DNA from: Pelagibacteraceae bacterium
Lineage (GTDB): Bacteria > Pseudomonadota > Alphaproteobacteria > Pelagibacterales > Pelagibacteraceae
NCBI GenBank assembly: GCA_016777565.1
Contig: JADHRF010000005.1
Location: forward strand, 1-41,361
Direction of reading: 5' to 3'
Length of the DNA stretch: 41,361 nt
How positions within the stretch are numbered: position 1 is the stretch's first letter; every line of letters begins with the position of its first letter. A program made the translations under genes and the position numbers. Of the stretch, positions 1-12,236 are shown one piece after another. The notes under the pieces are model-generated. The model worked only from the letters and a program-made list of their open reading frames with translations. It did not search any database and was not told the origin of the DNA.

Positions 1-53
1 GTGAAGGTGGAAAAACTGTTGGAGCTGGAGTAGTAACTAAAATTTTAAAGTAA
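1..53 (+). CDS. tuf: Elongation factor Tu, C-terminal fragment
   Basis: Only the last 16 codons and the stop are in the window, read from base 3. The translation EGGKTVGAGVVTKILK matches the C-terminal beta-barrel end of EF-Tu, the GTPase that delivers aminoacyl-tRNA to the ribosome. It is followed after 6 nt by tRNA-Trp and then secE-nusG, the arrangement seen for one of the two tuf genes in many Proteobacteria. No second tuf follows fusA in this window, so this may be the only copy. Partial at the left edge. Confidence 0.93.
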   Translation, partial: EGGKTVGAGVVTKILK

Positions 54-59
54 ACGCTT

Positions 60-135
60 AGGAGCGTAGTTCAATTGGTAGAGCGCCGGTCTCCAAAACC
101 GGAGGTTGTGGGTTCGAGTCCCTCCGCTCCTGCCA
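60..135 (+). tRNA. trnW: tRNA-Trp (anticodon CCA)
   Basis: A full cloverleaf can be folded. The 7-bp acceptor stem pairs AGGAGCG (60-66) with CGCTCCT (125-131). The anticodon stem CCGGT/ACCGG encloses loop CTCCAAA, with anticodon CCA at 93-95. The T arm contains GGTTCGAGTCC, the discriminator base is G132, and the 3' CCA (133-135) is encoded. It lies between tuf and secE and is probably cut out of a shared transcript, since no separate promoter is visible in the 6 nt upstream. Confidence 0.98.
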
Positions 136-154
136 AAAAAATTATAAAGAAAAT

Positions 155-346
155 ATGAAAAATCCTCTTAGATTTATTCAAGAAGTGAAGCAGGAAGCTT
201 TTAAAGTTACTTGGCCAACTAAGAAAGACACTGTTCAAGGAGGTTTGATGGTATTTGGTTTAGCATCTATAGCAGCTATTTTTTTTCTTATTTTAGATCA
301 GATACTCAGATTTTTACTTAATTTAGTCTTAACAATAAGTTTTTAA
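155..346 (+). CDS. secE: Preprotein translocase subunit SecE
   Basis: This 63-residue single-span membrane protein is the small essential subunit that clamps SecY in the Sec translocon. The N-terminal cytoplasmic amphipathic part carries the signature EVKQEAFKVTWPTKKDT (about residues 10-26, with the conserved V-W-P), followed by one hydrophobic helix at about 30-58. The length is typical of the short alphaproteobacterial form. It sits 19 nt after tRNA-Trp and 2 nt before nusG. No strong Shine-Dalgarno is seen, only A-rich sequence. Confidence 0.95.
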   Translation: MKNPLRFIQEVKQEAFKVTWPTKKDTVQGGLMVFGLASIAAIFFLILDQILRFLLNLVLTISF

Positions 347-348
347 AT

Positions 349-873
349 ATGAATTGGTATATTGTACAAGCATACTCAGGTTTTGAAAAAAAGGTCGTTG
401 AGTCTATTAAAGATACTTTAAAAAAGGCTAATTTAGAGTCTCATTTAGGAGAAATGTTAGTTCCAACACAAGAAGTTACTGAAGTTAAAAAGGGAAAAAG
501 AACAAAAAAACAAAAGAAATATTTTCCAGGCTACATTCTTGCTCAACTTAATATGACAAAAGAAGTTTACCACTCTATCAAAAATATACAGAAAGTTAGT
601 GGTTTTTTAGGTTCTGGAGATAAGCCTACACCTATATCTGATCAAGAAATACAAAGAATTTTAGGCTCAGTTTCAGAAAGTGCAATTAATCAAAAAAGTG
701 GTATAAGTTTCGAAATTGGTGAAAAAGTAAAAGTTTGTGATGGCCCTTTTGCTTCTTTTAATGGTTTGGTTGAAGAAATAGACGAAGAGAAATCGAGACT
801 TAAAGTTTCTGTTTCTATTTTTGGTCGAGCTACACCAGTCGATTTAGAGTATAACCAAGTAGAAAAAAATTAA
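349..873 (+). CDS. nusG: Transcription termination/antitermination factor NusG
   Basis: This 174-residue NusG has the N-terminal NGN domain (begins [16 protein letters not shown]; core [10 protein letters not shown] near 62-71), which binds the RNA polymerase clamp, and a C-terminal KOW domain (about 120-172, [19 protein letters not shown]), which contacts Rho or ribosomal protein S10. It reduces pausing and couples transcription with translation or Rho termination. The length is close to the family norm. It lies 2 nt after secE and 1 nt before rplK, so it is cotranscribed. Confidence 0.97.
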
Positions 874-874
874 T

Positions 875-1300
875 ATGGGAAAAGAAATAGCAGGATTAAT
901 TAAATTACAAATTAAAGGTGGTCAAGCTAACCCAGCACCACCTGTAGGCCCAGCGTTAGGTCAGCGTGGAGTAAATATTATGGAATTTTGTAAAGCGTTT
1001 AACGAAAAAACAAAATCAATGATGGGAAAACCTTGTCCTGTTGTAATCACAGTATATAAAGATAAAAAATTTGATTTTATTGTAAAAACACCCCCTGCAT
1101 CACATTACATTAGAGAAGCAGCTAAATTAAAAAGTGGCTCTAAAGAACCGGGCAGAACTGTTGCTGGTTCAATTACTATGAAACAAGCAGAGGAAATTGC
1201 AAAAGCAAAAATGAGTGACCTAAATGCTTTTGACATTAAAGAAGCCACAAAAATTATTTGCGGTTCAGCAAGATCAATGGGTATTGAGGTCAAAGGTTAA
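875..1300 (+). CDS. rplK: 50S ribosomal protein L11
   Basis: This 141-residue L11 forms the GTPase-associated stalk base with 23S rRNA helices 43/44. The N-terminal domain shows the diagnostic [20 protein letters not shown] run and [12 protein letters not shown], including the proline-rich loop contacted by thiostrepton-type drugs and release factors. The C-terminal RNA-binding domain ends [13 protein letters not shown]. The stop overlaps the rplA start by one base (TAATG), suggesting translational coupling. Start chosen by alignment with the family N-terminus. Confidence 0.97.
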
Positions 1301-1992
1301 TGAGAAAAAAATCAAAAAGATATGATGAGCTCTCAAAAAATTCAAAAAATTTTAAATCTAAAGATTTAAAAGAGACTTTAGAATTAATTAAAAAAAATTC
1401 TACAGCAAAATTTGATGAGTCAATAGATGTTTCATTACGTATTGGACTCAAACAATCTAAAGGAGGAGACTTTAGTTTAAGAACTGTCACACAACTCCCA
1501 TCAGGCTCAGGAAAAAAAATAAAGGTTGCTGTACTTTGTGAAGCTGACAAAATTGAAGAAGCAAAAAAAAATGGAGCAGATCTGGTTGGTTCAGAAGATT
1601 TGATAGAAAAAATAGCAGCTGGAAAATTTGATTTTGACAAGTTAATATGTTCTCCAGGCATGATGGGAAAAATTGGAAAATATGGTAAAGTTTTAGGTCC
1701 CAAAGGATTAATGCCAAATCCTAAACTTGGAACAGTTTCTGCAAATATTAAAAAATCAGTTAATGATATTAAAACTGGTTTAATAGAAATTAAGCATGAT
1801 AAAGATGGAAATATCGGAATATCTATTGGAAGAAAAAGTTTTTCTACTGAAAAATTAGTAAATAATTTTAAACATTTTTTAGATTTTATTAAAAAAGAAA
1901 AACCTGATGCAATTAAAGGTGATTTTATAAAAAATATATATATAACATCTTCAATGGGAGCTTCTATAAAAGTAAGCAGTAAAATAATTTAA
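1300..1992 (+). CDS. rplA: 50S ribosomal protein L1
   Basis: This 230-residue L1 is of family length and forms the L1 stalk that moves E-site tRNA. Recognisable segments are KFDESIDVSLRIGL (about 33-46), the L1 signature region KLICSPGMMGKIGKYGKVLGPKG, and LMPNPKLGTVS. In many bacteria L1 represses its own rplK-rplA mRNA. The leader site for that would lie near the start of rplK, which here follows nusG by one base, so any such site must overlap nusG coding sequence. Two bases separate it from rplJ. Confidence 0.97.
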   Translation: MRKKSKRYDELSKNSKNFKSKDLKETLELIKKNSTAKFDESIDVSLRIGLKQSKGGDFSLRTVTQLPSGSGKKIKVAVLCEADKIEEAKKNGADLVGSEDLIEKIAAGKFDFDKLICSPGMMGKIGKYGKVLGPKGLMPNPKLGTVSANIKKSVNDIKTGLIEIKHDKDGNIGISIGRKSFSTEKLVNNFKHFLDFIKKEKPDAIKGDFIKNIYITSSMGASIKVSSKII

Positions 1993-1994
1993 TT

Positions 1995-2507
1995 ATGATG
2001 AATAAAGAGACAAAAAAAAATTATATCGATGAAATGAAAAAAGTTTTTTCTTCTAACGATGCTGTAATGATTGCTCATTATCAAGGTCTGAATGTTATTC
2101 AATTAGACGCACTAAGAAAAGAATTGAGAGAAAATGGAATAATTTTTAAGATTACAAAAAATAGAATTACAAAATTAGCTGTTAAAGAAACTCCATTGAA
2201 AGAACTTGAAAAATTTTTTACTGGACCAACAGCTGCAGCGATATCTTCGGATCCTTTCATGTCCGCTAGAATTTTATCTAAATTTGCGAAAACTAACGAT
2301 AAATTAAAAATTGTCGCAGGTTTTATGGAAGGTAAGGTCATTGACCAAGCAGAAGTTGCAAAAATAGCTAGTTTACCAACTTTAAAAGAAGCTAGAGCTA
2401 ATATAGTGGGGGTTTTGAATGCTTCAGCGCAAAAATTAATTGGTATTTTACTTGCACAGAGCAAAAAAATGGCTAGTTTAGCGCCCGCGGAAGAAAATAA
2501 AAAATAA
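1995..2507 (+). CDS. rplJ: 50S ribosomal protein L10
   Basis: This 170-residue L10 anchors the L7/L12 dimers to the stalk base. The N-terminal rRNA-binding domain begins [16 protein letters not shown] and contains [20 protein letters not shown] and [15 protein letters not shown]. The C-terminal helix (about 135-160) binds L12. ATG codons stand at 1995 and 1998 and either could be used. The 2-nt gap after rplA leaves no intergenic space for the classical L10 leader that mediates autogenous control in many bacteria. Confidence 0.96.
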
Positions 2508-2523
2508 TTCACAGGATTTAACA

Positions 2524-2883
2524 ATGTCAGATTTAAATAAAATTATCGAAGATTTATCAAAACTAACTGTTGTAGAAGCGGCTGAACTTTCAAAACAACT
2601 CGAGGAAAAGTGGGGCGTATCTGCAGCAGCACCAGTAGCAGCAGCAGCAGCAGGAGCAGCAGCAGAAGAAAAATCTGAATTTACAGTTTTTTTGGCTTCA
2701 ACAGGAGATAAAAAAATTAACGTAATAAAAGAAGTTAGAGCAATAACTGGTTTAGGATTAAAAGAAGCTAAAGATTTAGTAGAAGCTGCACCTAAAGAAG
2801 TTAAAGCTGGAGTTGCTAAGAAAGATGCTGATGAAATGAAAGCAAAACTTGAAGCAGCTGGCGCAAAAGTAGAATTAAAGTAA
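2524..2883 (+). CDS. rplL: 50S ribosomal protein L7/L12
   Basis: This 119-residue stalk protein recruits and activates translational GTPases. The N-terminal dimerisation domain (about 1-31, [20 protein letters not shown]) is followed by an alanine-rich hinge (about 34-50) and the globular C-terminal domain (about 52-119), with the conserved [20 protein letters not shown] surface that binds EF-Tu and EF-G. An AGGA about 9 nt upstream is one of the few recognisable SD sequences here. The hinge is encoded almost wholly by GCA codons. The 58-nt gap downstream holds an inverted repeat. Confidence 0.97.
2623..2664 (+). repeat. GCA codon tract encoding the L7/L12 hinge
   Basis: Fourteen consecutive codons are eleven GCA interrupted by CCA, GTA and GGA, forming a trinucleotide microsatellite inside rplL. 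It encodes the flexible Ala/Pro/Gly hinge between the two L12 domains. Length changes by whole repeat units would keep the frame and only alter hinge length. Confidence 0.85.
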
Positions 2884-2898
2884 ACAAAATTTAGTTAC

Positions 2899-2929
2899 AT
2901 TTTACTGAAGTTTAAAACTTTAGTAAAAT
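2899..2929 (+). promoter_or_regulatory. Near-perfect inverted repeat between rplL and rpoB
   Basis: Positions 2899-2913 and 2915-2929 are complementary over 15 positions with a single G-U wobble (G2907/T2921), giving an RNA stem of at least 12 bp with a small A/U-rich loop. It is followed by TCTTATATTATT rather than a clean U-run, so it resembles a partial terminator or RNase III-type processing hairpin more than a strong terminator. In E. coli the equivalent rplL-rpoB gap carries an attenuator and an RNase III site that set the polymerase to ribosome ratio; transferring that role here is inference. Confidence 0.7.
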
Positions 2930-2941
2930 CTTATATTATTA

Positions 2942-5900
2942 ATGGATTTATCTTTTACTCAAAAAAAAAGCATTCGAAAAAATTTCGGAAAATTAATCGA
3001 AGGGCTGGCCTTACCAAATTTAATTGAAGTACAAAAAAATTCTTATAATGAATTTTTAAGTTCAAAATCAAATCACGAAATTAATGATGAACTAACAAAA
3101 GGTATACACAAAACTTTTCAAAGTATTTTTCCAATCGAAGATGGTAGCGACAAGTCTACATTGGAATATATTTCCTACAAATTAGAAAAGCCAAAATTTG
3201 ATGTTTTAGAATGTAAACAAAGAAGCTTAACATATGCCACATCTATAAAAGCTAACTTAAGATTAGTGGTTTACGATATAGATCCAGAAACAAATACAAA
3301 ACAAATATTATCAGCAAAAGAACAAGAAGTTTTTATAGGTGACCTTCCTTTGATGACTCCAAGCGGTACTTTTGTAGTTAATGGTGTTGAAAGGGTGGTC
3401 GTGAATCAAATGCACCGTAGTCCAGGAGTTTTTTTTGATCATGACAAAGGAAAGACCCATAGTAGTGGTAAATTATTATTTAACTGCAGAATTATACCTG
3501 GAAGAGGATCATGGTTAGATTTTGAGTTTGACCCAAAAGATATTTTATATTTTAGAATTGATAGAAAGAAAAAACTTCCTATCACTACATTGCTTTACGC
3601 ACTTGGTATTACCAGAGAGGAAGTAATTGAAAAATATTATTCTAAAGACTTATTTACATACGATGTAGAAACAAAAAAATGGAGTACAAAATTCATTCCT
3701 GAGAATTACAAAAGACCTATAAAATTACCTTATGATTTGATTGATTCAAAAACTAATAAAAAATTTTTAGACAAAGGCGAGAAACTTAATTTAGTTATAG
3801 CTAATAAGTTAAAAGACAAGGGTTTAGGAAATATTCTAATTTCTAACAGTGAAATTATTGGTAAATATATCGCTCATGATATCAAAGACAAAAGTAATGA
3901 ATTTATTATTCGATCAGGTTTTGACATAAACGAAGAATTGTTTGAAAAAATTATTTTTAATGAAACTTATTCTTTAAATTTAGTAAATATAGATCCAATC
4001 AATAAAGGGCCTTATCTACTTGAAACTTTAAAAATTGAAAAAAATATTGATAAAAACGAATCTTTAAATGACATTTATAGAATTTTAAGACCCGGAGAAG
4101 CACCTACCATAGAGGTTGCGGAGCAAGTATTTCAGAATTTGTACTTTAATAAAGAACGTTACGATTTATCAGAAGTTGGCAGAGTGAAACTAAATGCTAA
4201 ATTAAATCTTAAAACAAATATTAAAGATACAGTACTTTATAGAGAAGATATTTTGGCCATTATACAATTCATGATCGATTTACGTGATGGCAAAGGCGAA
4301 GTAGATGATATTGATCATTTAGGAAATAGAAGAGTGAGATCTGTAGGTGAGTTGGTCGAGAATCAATTTCGAATTGGTTTATTAAGAATGGAAAGAACTG
4401 TTAAAGAAAAAATGACAACCTTTCTTGAGATAGAGTCAGCTATGCCTCAAGATTTAGTCAACGCTAAACCAATTACAACTTCATTAAAAGATTTTTTTGC
4501 AACTTCCGCACTTTCACAATTTATGGATCAAACCAATCCATTGTCTGAAATTACTCACAAAAGAAGAGTCTCAGCACTTGGTCCTGGTGGACTTACAAGA
4601 GAGAGAGCTGGTTTTGAAGTTCGAGATGTTCACCCAACACATTATGGAAGAATTTGTCCGATAGAAACTCCAGAGGGGCCAAACATTGGATTAATAAATA
4701 GTTTAGCAACCTATTGTCGTGTAAATAAATATGGATACATAGAAAGCCCTTATAAAAAAGTTGTTAATGGCAAAGTTTCAAAAGAAGTTCACTATCTTTC
4801 GGCAATAGAAGAAGAAAAATTTACAATAGCTCAAGCTAATTCTCCAATAAATAAAGACGGAACTTTCGAAGAAGAGCTAGTATCATGTAGACACAATTTA
4901 AATTTCCTTTTGGCTAACAGAGAAAATATAGATTACATTGATGTGTCTCCAAAACAACTGGTTTCTGTAGCCGCAGCACTTATACCTTTTTTAGAGAATG
5001 ATGATGCCAACAGAGCTTTAATGGGCTCAAACATGATGAGACAAGCTGTGCCTTTATTAAAACCAGAGTCTCCATTGGTTGGTACTGGAATGGAATCGGA
5101 TGTAGCATTAGACTCAGGAGTTACAATTGTAGCAAAAAGGAACGGTATAGTAGACAAAATTGACGGTAAAAGAATTGTAGTCAAAGCTACTGAAGTAAAA
5201 GATTTATCACAATCTGGTGTAGATATTTATAATCTCTCAAAATTTAAGAGATCAAACCAGAATACGTGTATCAACCAAAGGCCATTGGTTAAAGTTGGAG
5301 ATAACATTAGAAAAGGCGATATTATTGCTGACGGGCCTGCAACTAAGTTGGGAGAGTTAGCGCTTGGTAAAAATGTTACAGTGGCTTTTATGCCATGGCA
5401 AGGTTACAACTTTGAAGATTCAATTTTGATTTCAGAGAGATGTGTAACCGATGATGTTTTTACTTCTATTCATATTGAAGAATATGAGGCAATGGCTCGT
5501 GATACAAAATTAGGTGCAGAGGAAGTAACCAGAGATATACCAAATGTTAGCGAAGAAAGCTTAAGGAATTTAGATGAGTCAGGAATTGTTTATGTGGGTG
5601 CAGAGGTAAAACCAGGAGATATTTTAGTTGGTAAAGTTACTCCGAAAAGCGAAACGTCCTCAAGCCCAGAGGAAAAATTACTTAGATCAATCTTTGGGGA
5701 AAAAGCCACTGACGTAAGAGACTCTTCACTTAAACTTAAATCAGGTGGCGCAGGAGTTGTTATAGATGTAAGAGTTTTTAACAGACACGGTATAGAAAAA
5801 GACGAAAGATCTATAGCTATAGAAAGAGCAGAAATAGAATTAGTGCAAGAGGATAAATTAGTCGAAGAAGAAATTTTGAACAGGAATATTAAGCTAAGAG

Positions 5901-7033
5901 CTGTAGATTTGATAAAAGACAAGCAAATAAACAAAACTTTTAAAGCACTTGAAGCAAACACAAACATTGATTCTGAAAAGCTAAATGATTTAAATTTAAA
6001 AGATATTTGGAAATTAACTTTTTCTGACGAAAAAGTTAACCAAAATCTTTTAAAACTAAAAAAACAATTTGATGAAGCACATGAAGATATCAAATTAAGA
6101 TTTGAAGACAAAGTAATTAAAATTAAACAAGGAGATGATTTATTACCTACTGTAATGAAAGTAGTAAAAGTCTTTGTAGCAGTTAAAAGAAGGTTAATGC
6201 CTGGTGATAAGATGGCGGGAAGACATGGCAACAAAGGTGTTGTTAGTAAAATTGTTCCTGTTCAGGATATGCCTTATATGACAAATGGAAAACCTGTTGA
6301 TATAGTTTTAAATCCTCTTGGAGTCCCTAGCCGGATGAACGTTGGTCAAATTTTAGAAACTCATTTAGGTTGGGCTTGTTCTGAATTGGGTGACCAAATA
6401 AAAGAATATTTAAGAAATTTTGATGAAACTATAGAAGATCTTAAAAAAAAATTAAAAAACATTTACGGAAATGATTATTATGAAAACGTTGTTAGCAAAT
6501 TAAATAAAAAAGAGCTTCTTGAACTTGTTGAAAATGTTTCAAAGGGAGTTCCTATCGCTACACCAGTTTTTGATGGAGCTTCCACAAATGATATTAAAAA
6601 TATGTTAGATCTATCTAAACTACCGAACACAGGCCAAACAACTTTGTGGGACGGTTTAACAGGAGAAAAATTTGACAGGCCTGTTACTGTTGGAATTATA
6701 TACATGTTAAAATTAAATCATCTAGTAGAAGATAAGATCCATGCTAGATCGACAGGACCGTACAGTTTAGTCACACAACAACCACTTGGTGGAAAAGCAC
6801 AAATGGGTGGTCAGAGATTTGGAGAAATGGAAGTTTGGGCTTTAGAAGCTTATGGCGCCTCTTACACTTTACAAGAGATTTTAACTGTTAAATCAGACGA
6901 TGTTGCTGGAAGAACTAAAGTTTATGAAACTATAGTTAAAGGAAACAATAATTTTGAATCAGGAGTTCCTGAGTCTTTTAACGTTTTAATTAAGGAAATT
7001 AGAGCATTAGGTTTGAACATAGAGCTTAATTAA
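2942..7033 (+). CDS. rpoB: RNA polymerase beta subunit
   Basis: This 1363-residue beta subunit is complete and close to proteobacterial length. Conserved blocks in order are the protrusion start ([10 protein letters not shown]), [21 protein letters not shown] (near 140), the rifampicin pocket at about 526-544 (starting [17 protein letters not shown]), [32 protein letters not shown], the active-centre [13 protein letters not shown], and the C-terminal [20 protein letters not shown]. Residues equivalent to E. coli D516, H526 and S531 are kept (D529, H539, S544), so the pocket looks rifampicin-sensitive. T531 stands where E. coli has N518. One base separates it from rpoC. Confidence 0.98.
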
Positions 7034-7034
7034 T

Positions 7035-10000
7035 ATGGAAAAAAATTTATCAAAACAATCTTATCAAAATCAAACTAATAATTTGGCCGAAGCTAATTTT
7101 GATAGCATAAAAATTACCTTAGCTAGTCCTGAAAAAATAAAATCGTGGTCATTTGGCGAAATTAAGAAACCAGAAACAATTAATTACAGAACTTTTAGAC
7201 CAGAAAAAGACGGTCTTTTTTGTGCAAGAATATTTGGACCAGTTAAAGATTATGAGTGTCTTTGCGGTAAGTACAAAAGAATGAAATTTAGAGGAATTAT
7301 TTGCGAAAAATGCGGTGTTGAAATAACAAAATCAAATGTAAGAAGAGAGAGAATGGGGCATATAGATTTAGCTTGTCCTGTTGCACATATTTGGTTCCTA
7401 AAATCTTTACCTAGTCGAATAGCTCTAGCGATGGACATGAAGCTGAAAGATGTTGAAAGAGTTTTATACTTTGAAAGTTTTATTGTAGTTGAGCCTGGAT
7501 TAACTACTTTGAAAAAAGGAGATTTAATAAATGAAGAACAATTACTTAAAGCACAAGAGGAATTTGGTGAAGATGCTTTCCAAGCAGGTATAGGCGCGGA
7601 AGCAGTAAGAGAAATTCTAATAAGTTTAGACTTAATAAAAGAACAAAAAAAATTACGCGCATCTCTTGATACTGTAAAATCAAAAGTTACAGAAGAAAGA
7701 ACAATTAAAAGATTAAAATTAATTGAGTCTTTTATTGATTCTGGAAACAAACCCGAGTGGATGATCTTAACTTCTGTACCAGTTATACCACCTGAACTTA
7801 GGCCATTAGTACCATTAGATGGAGGAAGATTTGCTACATCTGATCTTAACGATTTATACAGAAGAGTTATAAACCGAAACAATAGATTAAAAAGATTATT
7901 AGATCTTAAAGCTCCAGACATTATTGTTAGAAATGAAAAAAGAATGCTCCAAGAGTCTGTAGACGCACTTTTTGATAACGGAAGAAGAGGTAGAGTAATT
8001 ACTGGGACTGGAAAACGCCCTTTAAAATCCCTAGCTGAAATGCTCAAGGGAAAACAAGGTAGATTTAGACAAAATCTTCTTGGAAAACGAGTAGATTATT
8101 CTGGCCGATCAGTAATTGTTGTTGGCCCAGAATTAAAATTACATCAGTGTGGATTACCAAAAAAAATGGCACTCGAGTTGTTTAAACCCTTCTTGTATGC
8201 GAGATTAGATAAATTAGGCTTAGCAACTACCATTAAACAAGCAAAACGATTAGTTGAAAAAGAAGTTCCTGAAGTATGGGATGCACTAGAGTTTATTACG
8301 AGAGAACATCCAATATTATTAAACCGAGCACCAACTTTGCATAGATTAGGTGTTCAGGCCTTTGAAGTGAAGCTAATTGAGGGTTACGCAATAGAGTTGC
8401 ACCCTTTGGTTTGTGCAGCGTTCAATGCTGACTTTGATGGTGACCAAATGGCTGTACATATTCCTTTAAGTTTAGAAGCTCAATTAGAAGCTAGAGTTTT
8501 AATGATGTCGACAAACAACATTTTAAGCCCATCTAATGGAAAACCCATTATAGTACCAAGTCAAGATATAGTATTAGGGATTTACTATCTTTCTCAATCA
8601 GATGAGACAAAAGACGAAAAGCCAAAAGGTATATTCTCTAATATTGAAGAGATTGGCCATGCAATTGAGGATAAATCTATTAGCTTACACTCTAAAATTA
8701 TTTCAGTATTTGAAACTATAGATGATAAGGGTAATAAAACTAATCAGAAGTACACAAGTACAGCTGGTAGATTCTTATTAGCAAGCGTTCTGCCTAAACA
8801 TCACAAAATCAAATTTACTCTAATCGATAGACTTTTAACAAAGAAAAATGTTTCAGAAGTTATTGACACAATATTTAGATTTTGTGGTCAAAAAGAAACA
8901 GTTATTTTTTGTGACAGAATTAAAACTTTAGGTTTCAAACATGCTTTTAAAGCAGGAATATCCTTTGGTAAAGATGATCTAATTATTCCAGAAACAAAAA
9001 TAAATCTGATAAATCAAACAAAAAAACAAATAGAAGAATATGAAAAACAGTATTCAGATGGACTGATAACAAGAGGAGAAAAATATAATAAGGTAGTTGA
9101 TATCTGGTCGAAATGCACTGATACTGTTGCAAATGAAATGATGAAACAAATTTCATCTGCTCAAAAAGTATATCCAGATGGAAGAATTGAAACAAACTCG
9201 GTTTATATGATGGCTGACTCTGGAGCTAGAGGTTCACAAGCACAGATGAAACAGTTAGCAGGGATGAGAGGTTTAATAGCAAAGCCATCTGGTGAAATTA
9301 TTGAAACTCCAATTATATCCAACTTTAAGGAGGGTTTGACTGTGCTAGAATATTTTAATTCTACACATGGAGCTCGAAAAGGTCTTGCAGATACTGCATT
9401 AAAAACTGCAAATTCAGGCTATCTAACCAGAAGACTTTGCGATGTAGCACAAGACTTACAGGTAACAATGAAAGATTGTGGCTCTAAATCACATATAAAT
9501 ATTACTGAAATAATTGAGGGAGGAAATATCTTAGTTAGTTTATCGGAAAGAGTTTTAGGCAGAACTCCTGCGCAAGATATTAAACACCCAATAACAGGCG
9601 AGGTAATAATTAAAAAGAAAAAACTGTTAAACGAGTTTGATTGTGAATTAATCGACGCTGCAGGAGTAAAATCTATTCAAGTTTATTCTGTTATTACTTG
9701 CACAGCTGAAAGAGGCGTCTGTCAAACATGTTACGGAAGAGATCTTTCGAGAGGAAAATTAGTAAGTATTGGTGAAGCAATTGGTATGATAGCTGCTCAA
9801 TCGATAGGTGAACCAGGAACTCAATTAACGATGAGAACTTTCCACGTCGGTGGGACAGCTCAAATAAAAGAAGAGTCGCAAATTATTTCTCAGAACAAAG
9901 GTAAGCTTAAAATTATAAATAAAAATCTTATTGAAGACTCAAAGAAAAATATTATCGTGATGGGAAGAAACACCGAACTTTCAATTGAAGATGATAATGG

Positions 10001-11213
10001 AATTCAACTAGGTATGTACAAAGTTCTATACGGCTCTAAACTTTTCTTTAAAGATGGGGACATGATTGAAAAAGGAAAAAAAATTGCAGAGTGGGATCCG
10101 TATACACTTCCGGTAATTGCAGAAACTAGTGGTATTGTTAATTATATGGATTTAGTTGAAGGGGTCTCTTTAACAGAAACAATGGATGACTCTACAGGAA
10201 TTTCTTCCAAGTCAGTTACCGACTGGAAATCACTTTCAAAAAATACAGAACTTAAACCAAGATTAACACTACGTAATGACAAAGGTGAAGTCATTAAAAA
10301 AGCTGACGGTAATGTTGCTAGATATTTTTTAGTTCCAGACTCAATTTTATCAGTTAAGGATGGACAAAAAGTTACTGCAGGTGACGTACTTGCACGTTTA
10401 CCAAAAGAGACGTCAAAAACAAAAGATATTACCGGAGGTTTGCCAAGAGTAGCAGAACTCTTTGAAGCCAGAAAACCAAAAGATAGTGCAATTATCGCTG
10501 AGAATGATGGTGTTATAGAGTTTGGCAAAGAAATAAGAGGAAAACAAAAAATTTCTATTATTTCTTCAAAAGGTGAAACTTCAAATTATTTAATTCCAAA
10601 AGGAAAGCACGTTAACTTTAATCAAGGTGAAAAAATTAAAAAAGGTGAATACTTACTTGACGGTAGTCCATTACCTCACGATATTCTAAGAATTTTAGGT
10701 GTTGAGCGACTCACCGAATATTTTGTTACAGAAGTTCAAGAAGTTTACAGACTACAGGGTGTTGTAATTAACGACAAACACATCGAGACAATTGTTAGAC
10801 AAATGTTGAAAAAAGTAGAAATAAAAGAACCTGGGGATACAGATTATTTACTTAATGAAACAGTTGATTTAATAGATATAACTAAAATCAATGAAGACTT
10901 GAAAAAAAATGGAAAAAAACCAGCTGTTTATGAAAGAATTTTATTAGGTATAACTAAAGCATCATTACAAACTAAATCATTTATTTCTGCCGCGTCATTT
11001 CAAGAAACAACGAGAGTGTTAACTGACGCATCTATTAGAGGTAAAGTAGATACTTTAGAGGGCTTAAAAGAGAACGTAATAGTAGGAAGATTAGTGCCGG
11101 CTGGAACTGGCCTTACAAAAATGGGCTGGGATAAAGAAGCTAAAAAACAAGATGAGCTGAGGTTAGCTGAAATTAAAAAACAACAACTTGAAAACCCTCC
11201 TGCAGCAGAGTAA
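7035..11213 (+). CDS. rpoC: RNA polymerase beta' subunit
   Basis: This 1392-residue beta' subunit is full length. The first zinc site uses C75, C77, C90 and C93. The catalytic magnesium loop NADFDGDQ places the aspartates at 466, 468 and 470. The switch and lid region [20 protein letters not shown] and the trigger-loop/bridge-helix region near [21 protein letters not shown] are present. The second zinc site is CGS followed later by [11 protein letters not shown]. The C-terminus ends in a proline/alanine tail. It is the last gene before a 172-nt gap, the largest in the window. Confidence 0.98.
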
Positions 11214-11248
11214 TTCATTAAAAAAAAGCAAATTTAGCCTATTAAATA

Positions 11249-11276
11249 TTGACTTTTAGCTTTTCAATGCTAGTTT
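11249..11276 (+). promoter_or_regulatory. Candidate promoter upstream of rpsL
   Basis: TTGACT at 11249-11254 is followed after 16 nt by TAGTTT at 11271-11276. The -35 box matches the sigma-70 consensus at five of six positions; the -10 is weak at three of six. The same TTGACT with 16-nt spacing occurs before rpsM. A start near 11283 would give a leader of about 100 nt before rpsL containing two hairpins. This is the only long non-coding stretch in the ribosomal cluster, which supports a regulatory role. Confidence 0.45.
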
Positions 11277-11299
11277 AGCGCAATTTTGATAGTTAGAAG

Positions 11300-11352
11300 T
11301 AAGGTAGTATTTAACCTTAAACACTGACTTAAACGTACCTTGAAAACCAAGG
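11300..11352 (+). promoter_or_regulatory. Two small hairpins in the rpsL leader
   Basis: Stem 1 pairs TAAGGT (11300-11305) with ACCTTA (11314-11319) around an 8-nt loop. Stem 2 pairs CCTTG (11338-11342) with CAAGG (11348-11352) around AAAAC. The two stems share complementary AAGG/CCTT cores, so alternative pairing between them is possible. A T-run (11365-11371) lies shortly downstream, so an attenuator or weak terminator is conceivable. I do not recognise a named ribosomal-protein leader motif. Confidence 0.4.
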
Positions 11353-11385
11353 CCTGCCTTTAGCTTTTTTTATCAAAATTTTTTT

Positions 11386-11757
11386 ATGCCAACAATTAGT
11401 CAACTTTTAAGAAAACCTCGGGTTAAACCGATTACTAGAAATAAAGTTCCTGCTTTAGAAGGCCAACCCTTAAAGCGTGGCGTTTGTTTAAAAGTTTATA
11501 CAACCACACCAAAAAAACCTAACTCTGCTTTAAGAAAAGTTGCACGTGTAAGATTATCAAATGGATTTGAAGTAACTGCTTATATTCCTGGTGAAGGTCA
11601 TAACTTACAAGAACATTCTGTTGTATTACTTCGTGGTGGACGTGTAAAAGATTTACCAGGTGTTCGATACCATATTTTAAGAGGAAATCTAGATACACAA
11701 GGAATAGCGGCTAGAAAAAAAAGAAGATCGTTATACGGAACTAAGAAACCCAAATAA
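11386..11757 (+). CDS. rpsL: 30S ribosomal protein S12
   Basis: This 123-residue S12 sits in the decoding centre and monitors codon-anticodon pairing. Streptomycin-relevant residues are wild type: K43 in [10 protein letters not shown] and K88 in RVKDLPG, with D89 as the usual methylthiolation target. It ends [11 protein letters not shown] as in other alphaproteobacteria. It is the first gene of the str block (rpsL-rpsG-fusA) and is preceded by the window's longest non-coding leader. The start fits the family N-terminus [12 protein letters not shown]. Confidence 0.98.
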
Positions 11758-11765
11758 TTTTATCA

Positions 11766-12236
11766 ATGTCTAGAAAAAGAAAAGCACCTGTTAGAAAAGT
11801 TTACCCTGATCCTAAATTTAGATCAGAATTAGTTTCAAAATTTATAAATTGCATAATGTATGACGGAAAAAGATCTACAGCAGAAAGAATATTATACGGT
11901 GCTTTAGAGAAAATAAAAGAAACGAACAAACAAGATCCAATTAAAACATTTAATGATGCTATTAATAATGTAAAACCAAATGTTGAATGTAGATCTAGAA
12001 GAGTAGGCGGAGCTACATATCAAGTACCAGTAGAAGTTAAATCTAAAAGAGCTCAAGCACTAGCCTTAAGATGGATAAAAGATGCTACAAGAAATCGAAA
12101 GAACAAAACAATGGCTGAAAAATTATATGCTGAACTATTAGATGCTTCACAAAACAAGGGTTCTGCTATTAAAAAAAGAGAAGATACCCACAGAATGGCA
12201 GAATCTAACAAAGCATTTGCACATTTTAGGTGGTAA
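11766..12236 (+). CDS. rpsG: 30S ribosomal protein S7
   Basis: This 156-residue S7 nucleates assembly of the 30S head and contacts mRNA and tRNA at the E site. Diagnostic stretches are [18 protein letters not shown] at the N-terminus, [20 protein letters not shown] near 77-96, [13 protein letters not shown], and the C-terminal [20 protein letters not shown]. The length is standard. It lies 8 nt after rpsL and 6 nt before fusA. In E. coli S7 represses the str operon through an rpsL-rpsG intergenic site; the 8-nt gap here leaves no such structure. Confidence 0.98.

Follow-up and report, generated by a model that had tools for sequence, protein, structure and literature searches.

A conserved RNA hairpin between rplL and rpoB in SAR11 bacteria and its candidate role in rpoB expression

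Few cells in the sea outnumber SAR11 bacteria, whose genomes are very small and poor in regulators. How might such bacteria separate the expression of RNA polymerase from that of the ribosomal proteins encoded in the same operon? In E. coli, the rplL-rpoB spacer contains an attenuator (PMC4670729) and an RNase III substrate (PMC2777011), which, according to excerpts of these papers, are said to decouple the genes. We analysed the same gap of the same operon, between the genes for L7/L12 and the RNA polymerase beta subunit, in a 41,361-nt stretch of DNA (hereafter the window) from a 69-contig genome of 1.17 Mb, whose nearest named relatives are Pelagibacterales (SAR11) contigs. The original prediction placed an inverted repeat here, at the site of the E. 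coli attenuator and RNase III cleavage, a match of place with which both excerpts agree, and leaned towards processing or partial termination as its function.

The hairpin in the window

All features of the locus lie on the forward strand. The rplL gene (2524..2883; Pfam PF00542 and PF16320) encodes ribosomal protein L7/L12 and its stop codon ends at 2883, while rpoB (2942..7033), an open reading frame for RNA polymerase beta whose first 500 codons match PF04561 and PF04563, starts with the ATG at 2942, leaving a gap of 58 nt. Within this gap, at 2899-2929, we found ATTTTACTGAAGTTT A AAACTTTAGTAAAAT, two 15-base arms around a single centre base with one G-T, which is the predicted 31-nt near-perfect palindrome with its one G-U. 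In the coding-strand RNA, it folds at -12.0 kcal/mol into a 14-bp stem closed by a loop of 3 nt, and two of the pairs are G-C. The 14 paired bases of the 5′ arm occupy 2899..2912 and the loop 2913..2915, and the 3′ arm (2916..2929), defined by the RNA fold and by covariation, carries the U of the sole G-U. The stem is preceded by the linker ACAAAATTTAGTTAC (2884..2898), of which the ACAAAATTT portion is frequent within the genus, and followed by the AU-rich linker CTTATATTATTA (2930..2941), which runs into the start codon without a U-run or a Shine-Dalgarno motif.

The hairpin exceeds chance. None of 200 dinucleotide shuffles folded as well as the 35-nt piece at 2897-2931, and 1 of 200 folded as well as the 58-nt gap. 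The opposite strand of the gap folded less well (-8.9 kcal/mol, with 11 of 200 shuffles equally good), because the wobble turns into A-C. A repeat search of positions 1-12000 at default seed and length listed three other pairs, the hairpin palindrome being absent. The covariance model R1 had the hairpin site as its sole match in seven of eight genomes of the genus, its training set including some of these; each search scored 150 of a genome's roughly 3,500-5,600 first-look candidates, and uniqueness of the site is therefore unproven. In nine genomes of other genera R1 gave no match at E<=1, and within the window its only further match was the reverse strand of the hairpin site (E 0.35).

The idea that hairpins are general in short SAR11 gaps was rejected. 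Using a home-made ORF caller on 143 kb of the window's own genome, we sampled 16 co-directional gaps of 30-80 nt, of which 3 folded at p<=0.01, the rpoB gap among them; the count at p<=0.05 was likewise 3 of 16. In another genome (G123), only 3 of 15 sampled gaps reached p<=0.05, one of the three being the rpoB gap. The own genome also carries, at L270:4047-4089, between a gene for a Cys/Met-metabolism PLP enzyme and a rhodanese-domain gene, a hairpin of 12 bp that is built on a GCCCC/GGGGC core, lacks a U-run and stops 3 nt short of the called start codon.

Conservation of the fold across SAR11

The rplL-rpoB gaps of relatives were gathered from 80 named contigs, some of them non-SAR11, and from further genomes, in which the rpoB start region was located for 87 of 121 genomes of the genus, 115 of 147 of the family and 123 of 147 of the order, these lists overlapping. 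From the genus list, 30 loci and 54 hand-fetched regions were used and three partial matches were left. The family and order lists contributed the returned loci and 60 hand-fetched regions picked for genus coverage; many places in genus g4 were left out, and coverage of the second family was 15 of its 40 matching genomes. Gaps were readable in 262 of the 267 records (266 loci and the window), the failures being L047, L060, L070, L132 and L218. Removal of non-SAR11 gaps, identical gaps and L230 (unread bases) gave a final set of 202 distinct SAR11 gaps, which represent two families and 17 genera. Genus labels were assigned by similarity for the named contigs and otherwise taken as given by the search tool.

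A fold at p<=0.05 (at most 5 of 100 dinucleotide shuffles as good) was found in 171 of the 202 gaps, with a median z of -3.3; near-identical gaps were retained, so that the 202 are not independent. The counts were 86/91 in g1, the window's genus, 52/55 in g4, 6/7 in g15, 5/6 in g5, 5/5 in g6, 4/5 in g16, 4/8 in g3, 3/3 in g9 and 2/3 in g12. The single gaps of g7, g11 and g17 folded (1/1 each), those of g8, g10 and g14 did not (0/1 each), and the remaining counts were 0/2 in g18 and 1/11 in g2. A separate stem scan scored at least 14 in 190 of the 202 gaps and in 215 of 606 mononucleotide-shuffled gaps, none of which attained the window's 27.5. Nine of the 12 stemless gaps belonged to g2, a genus that, judged by these gaps, has mostly lost the hairpin. 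Six g2 members (L039, L187, L188, L255, L257 and L258) instead carry GGTAC...GTACC shortly after the rplL stop. Stems were mostly 8-15 bp long, with a median of two G-C pairs in both g1 and g4, and their letters visibly differed between genera at the same place.

We then considered compensatory changes, which the original prediction had proposed looking for in relatives. Alignment A1 comprised 59 of the 90 g1 gaps with a stem, leaving out a shorter subtype and some others, and alignment A2 comprised 47 of the 55 g4 gaps. Pairing was kept in 94.4% of cells in A1 and 95.7% in A2, and of the pairs, 10 of 14 in A1 and 7 of 10 in A2 had changed on both sides. The expected compensatory changes are thus abundant, and the refuting case named in the original prediction, pairing not conserved among close relatives, does not hold. 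Cells changed on both sides numbered 56 in A1 and 42 in A2; shuffles gave 15.6 and 14.5, and slid partners 8-27 and 6-15, respectively. Counts of this kind are inflated by relatedness. For A2, two of five measures were matched by 5 and 13 of 500 shuffles. RNAalifold recovered 13 pairs of the stem from A1 unaided.

The mismatches in the stems point to the strand. In a scan weighting both alike, G-T numbered 185 and A-C 19, whereas the best stems of shuffled gaps, which were unmatched for score, had 369 G-T and 254 A-C (Fisher p 7e-19). Since G-T pairs only in the coding-strand RNA, this RNA is most simply the molecule under selection. Taken together, these comparisons show that, in most sampled SAR11 genera, selection has preserved a fold of the coding-strand RNA that lies between the stop of rplL and the start of rpoB; with pair-keeping changes beyond chance on the RNA strand, it qualifies as a conserved structured RNA element.

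Stem position and rpoB translation

In family f1, to which the window belongs, the stem starts a median of 16 nt past the rplL stop and ends a median of 10 nt before the ATG, and its end lies 3-13 nt ahead of the rpoB start codon in 166 of 175 gaps, a placement that the original prediction did not mention. The median deviation is 1 nt for the spacing to the ATG and 2 nt for that from the stop; by standard deviation (3.6 and 3.5) the two spacings do not differ. For family f2, 12 of 15 gaps place the stem's end 19-23 nt ahead of the start, at or beyond the 30S footprint, and interference with initiation is therefore not common to all SAR11. The f2 stem is followed by a G-rich stretch such as GGGTGA. 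In this purine-rich stretch the count of Shine-Dalgarno motifs was not above chance (1/7 in g15 and 0/5 in g16), and the anti-Shine-Dalgarno energy was -4.0 against -1.6 when shuffled in g15, with no excess in g16. In L242 and L246 of this family, the ATG called as the start comes right after the stem (ATGGGTGA...), in the place of the relatives' G-rich stretch; the true start of rpoB may be further downstream.

Based on the position of the f1 stem in the rpoB ribosome-binding region, where a Shine-Dalgarno helix would be expected, we tentatively favour the reading that the hairpin is a cis-acting RNA element in the rplKAJL-rpoBC message, which would separate rpoB from ribosomal-protein expression post-transcriptionally by metering rpoB initiation; we put its chances somewhat below even. 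The f1 stem would begin beyond the reach of a ribosome terminating on rplL and would end where an initiating 30S subunit must sit. With its median of two G-C pairs, the AU-rich stem is weak; the subunit would either melt it or load while it stays folded out, and the hairpin would thereby lower or meter rpoB initiation.

How the 30S subunit might be recruited was approached by counting the motifs AGGA, AAGG, GGAG and GAGG. In g4, such a motif lay 5′ of the stem in 20 of 55 gaps (shuffle mean 4.3, with 0 of 500 shuffles as high), the gaps with it being related to each other, and after the stem in 1 of 55. In g9, 2 of 3 gaps had one 5′ of the stem. In g1, motifs occurred before the stem in 2 of 90 gaps (2.5 expected by chance) and after it in none of 90, and the window has none. 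Duplex energies with the anti-Shine-Dalgarno sequence before the stem were slightly better than shuffled in g1 (-1.4 vs +0.2) and, with an assumed anti-Shine-Dalgarno tail, hardly above shuffled in g4 (-1.5 vs -1.0). The usual 3′ end of 16S rRNA is GGATCACCTCC. A search for the 16S end with this sequence gave five places, none with a 16S hallmark nearby, and a search with GGATCACCTCCTT gave nothing. Located via another motif, the 16S 3′ end in two g4 genomes (L298 and L299) reads GGATTACCTCCTTT, with an intact anti-Shine-Dalgarno core, and ends in CCTCCTTT.

In phage T4 genes 25 and 38, structure between the Shine-Dalgarno sequence and the AUG leaves them 11 nt apart instead of 27 and 5 nt apart instead of 22, respectively, according to an excerpt of PMC3014915. 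Similarly to gene 25, the folded stem in g4 would bring the far-side motifs to the AUG: in 19 printed g4 gaps, the spacing from motif to ATG minus the stem is 8-20 nt, and it is 11 nt in seven of them, which are close relatives. Unlike genes 25 and 38, the motif is present in only 20/55 g4 and 2/3 g9 gaps, and is found neither in the window nor in g1 beyond chance. The bridging idea thus rests on the g4 motif count and two g9 gaps, because g1 is at chance and the g4 energies show little excess. We consider it unlikely that a hairpin-bridged ribosome-binding site is SAR11's standing setter of the RNA polymerase:ribosome ratio. If it were, the 30S subunit would load between the rplL stop and the hairpin and reach the rpoB start across the folded stem, and stem stability, set by temperature or by ribosome traffic on rplL, would meter RNA polymerase synthesis without a regulator protein.

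Processing and termination as alternatives

The leading rival to the translational reading is a processing or stability boundary, in which the AU-rich linker next to the stem would be cleaved by an enzyme of the RNase E type and the hairpin would shield the 3′ end of the rplKAJL message, so that ribosomal-protein mRNA would outlast rpoBC mRNA. A gene of the RNase E/G family was found in all five SAR11 genomes searched, the window's own included, and an excerpt of PMC2777011 describes RNase E sites as A/U-rich stretches usually with a stem-loop before them. Such a boundary needs only a stem and thus suits both SAR11 families, and it accords with the long structured spacers that other Alphaproteobacteria have here. 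However, it does not require the tight spacing to the AUG in f1, and the stems, whose median number of G-C pairs is two in both g1 and g4, are weak. Weak stems make a poor exonuclease barrier. We regard the boundary as possible, although on balance we would not expect it, and a translational role as at least as likely, given that the stem lies in the rpoB ribosome-binding region. The two roles are compatible, and the translational hairpin may double as a processing boundary.

Partial intrinsic termination, that is, an attenuator as in E. coli at the same place in at least part of g1, would require a U-run directly after the stem, which in intrinsic terminators is usually G+C-rich. In the window, the stem has two G-C pairs and the next eight bases are CTTATATT, without a U-run, which upholds the earlier observation that a proper U-run is lacking; nor did a terminator scan list the hairpin. 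In g1, 52 of 90 stems are followed directly by a T-run of at least five, 28 of these runs being seven or eight long, and at least five T occur among the next eight bases in 68 of 90. After the stems of other genera, a T-run of at least five occurs in 1 of 55 g4 gaps and in none of 31 in g3, g5, g6, g15 and g16, where the hairpin is mostly kept. A U-run shared across the order was therefore not found in the genera tabulated (g1, g3, g4, g5, g6, g15 and g16), and the hairpin is more widespread than the U-run. Because the T-run is confined mainly to part of g1 and is absent in the window, termination is unlikely as the shared function, and the earlier lean towards it is unsupported as regards a common mechanism.

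AU-only stems need be no bar to this reading: 3 of 46 convergent gene ends in two genomes were terminator-like, with 0, 0 and 1 G-C pairs. Convergent gene ends failed as a yardstick for terminators, since only these 3 of 46 scored, and given such stems we make no general claim of G+C-rich terminators in SAR11. In the sampled gaps, two strong hairpins that carry long U-runs (L268 and L281) are G+C-rich, unlike the window hairpin. With the attenuator known from the E. coli spacer (PMC4670729, in excerpt) as precedent and the g1 T-runs in hand, a partial terminator may have evolved in part of g1, but as an explanation of the hairpin we think termination unlikely.

RNase III cleavage, as between rplL and rpoB in E. 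coli, where an excerpt of PMC2777011 lists the spacer as a substrate, shares the place with the hairpin, the genome has a gene of the RNase III family, and in some g1 members the fold can be extended below the stem. The lower extension is missing from the fold of the gap alone and from the A1 consensus fold, though a 121-nt piece, with more sequence, does give a few flanking pairs. The usual RNase III substrate has a longer double-stranded stem of about two helical turns, whereas the stem here is 14 bp in the window and mostly 8-15 bp elsewhere. RNase III cleavage is therefore improbable, but processing as such, towards which the original prediction leaned, is still a candidate. Finally, a DNA-level palindrome (a regulator site or promoter feature) or chance, suggested by the almost perfect symmetry and by promoter-like hexamers overlapping the palindrome on both strands, was rejected as highly improbable on the G-T/A-C asymmetry (185:19), with stem letters and loop lengths widely variable and promoter-like sites in 2400-12000 numbering 41 against 32.8 (sd 6.4) in shuffles.

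Related elements and meaning for SAR11

The SAR11 element differs from that of E. coli in being one short AU-rich hairpin, in a 58-nt gap in the window, with a stem near the start codon that is short for RNase III, and in a U-run that is absent from the window and, among the genera tabulated, found only in part of g1 plus one exception. Another element in this gap is the Rhodo-rpoB RNA (Rfam RF03074), a cis-regulatory family likewise upstream of rpoB, on whose name a literature search returned no paper. RF03074 matched the rplL-rpoB gap of L051, L063 and L073 (Rhodobacteraceae). Among 16 further alphaproteobacterial loci, it lay upstream of rpoB in one (L307), and no Rfam family matched in the other 15. 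Its model has 93 positions and did not match the SAR11 hairpin: the window gave none at the gathering score, nor did the SAR11 loci L036, L037, L130 and L161 at E<=5, in the same search that matched the three Rhodobacteraceae. Over these searches no Rfam family was found for the hairpin.

In other alphaproteobacterial families, 25 gaps (from 29 loci, four of them without a readable rplL or start) were 52-838 nt long, and 22 of 25 had z <= -1.6 against 50 mononucleotide shuffles each of their first 400 bases. One non-SAR11 gap of 52 nt and 17% G+C (L326) had no such hairpin (z +0.77). Judged from these gaps, SAR11 seem to have been reduced to one hairpin. No published SAR11 rplL-rpoB hairpin appeared in the titles and abstract openings searched, but most subscription papers lay outside the search and absence from print is unestablished; the main text of PMC2704228 has 0 occurrences of either rpoB or rplL.

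Altogether, about 30 bases in SAR11 take the place of the structured spacers, 110-840 bases long, of most other Alphaproteobacteria. Retained through extensive sequence change in two families, the hairpin is a concrete candidate for keeping ribosome and RNA polymerase synthesis proportionate from one operon.
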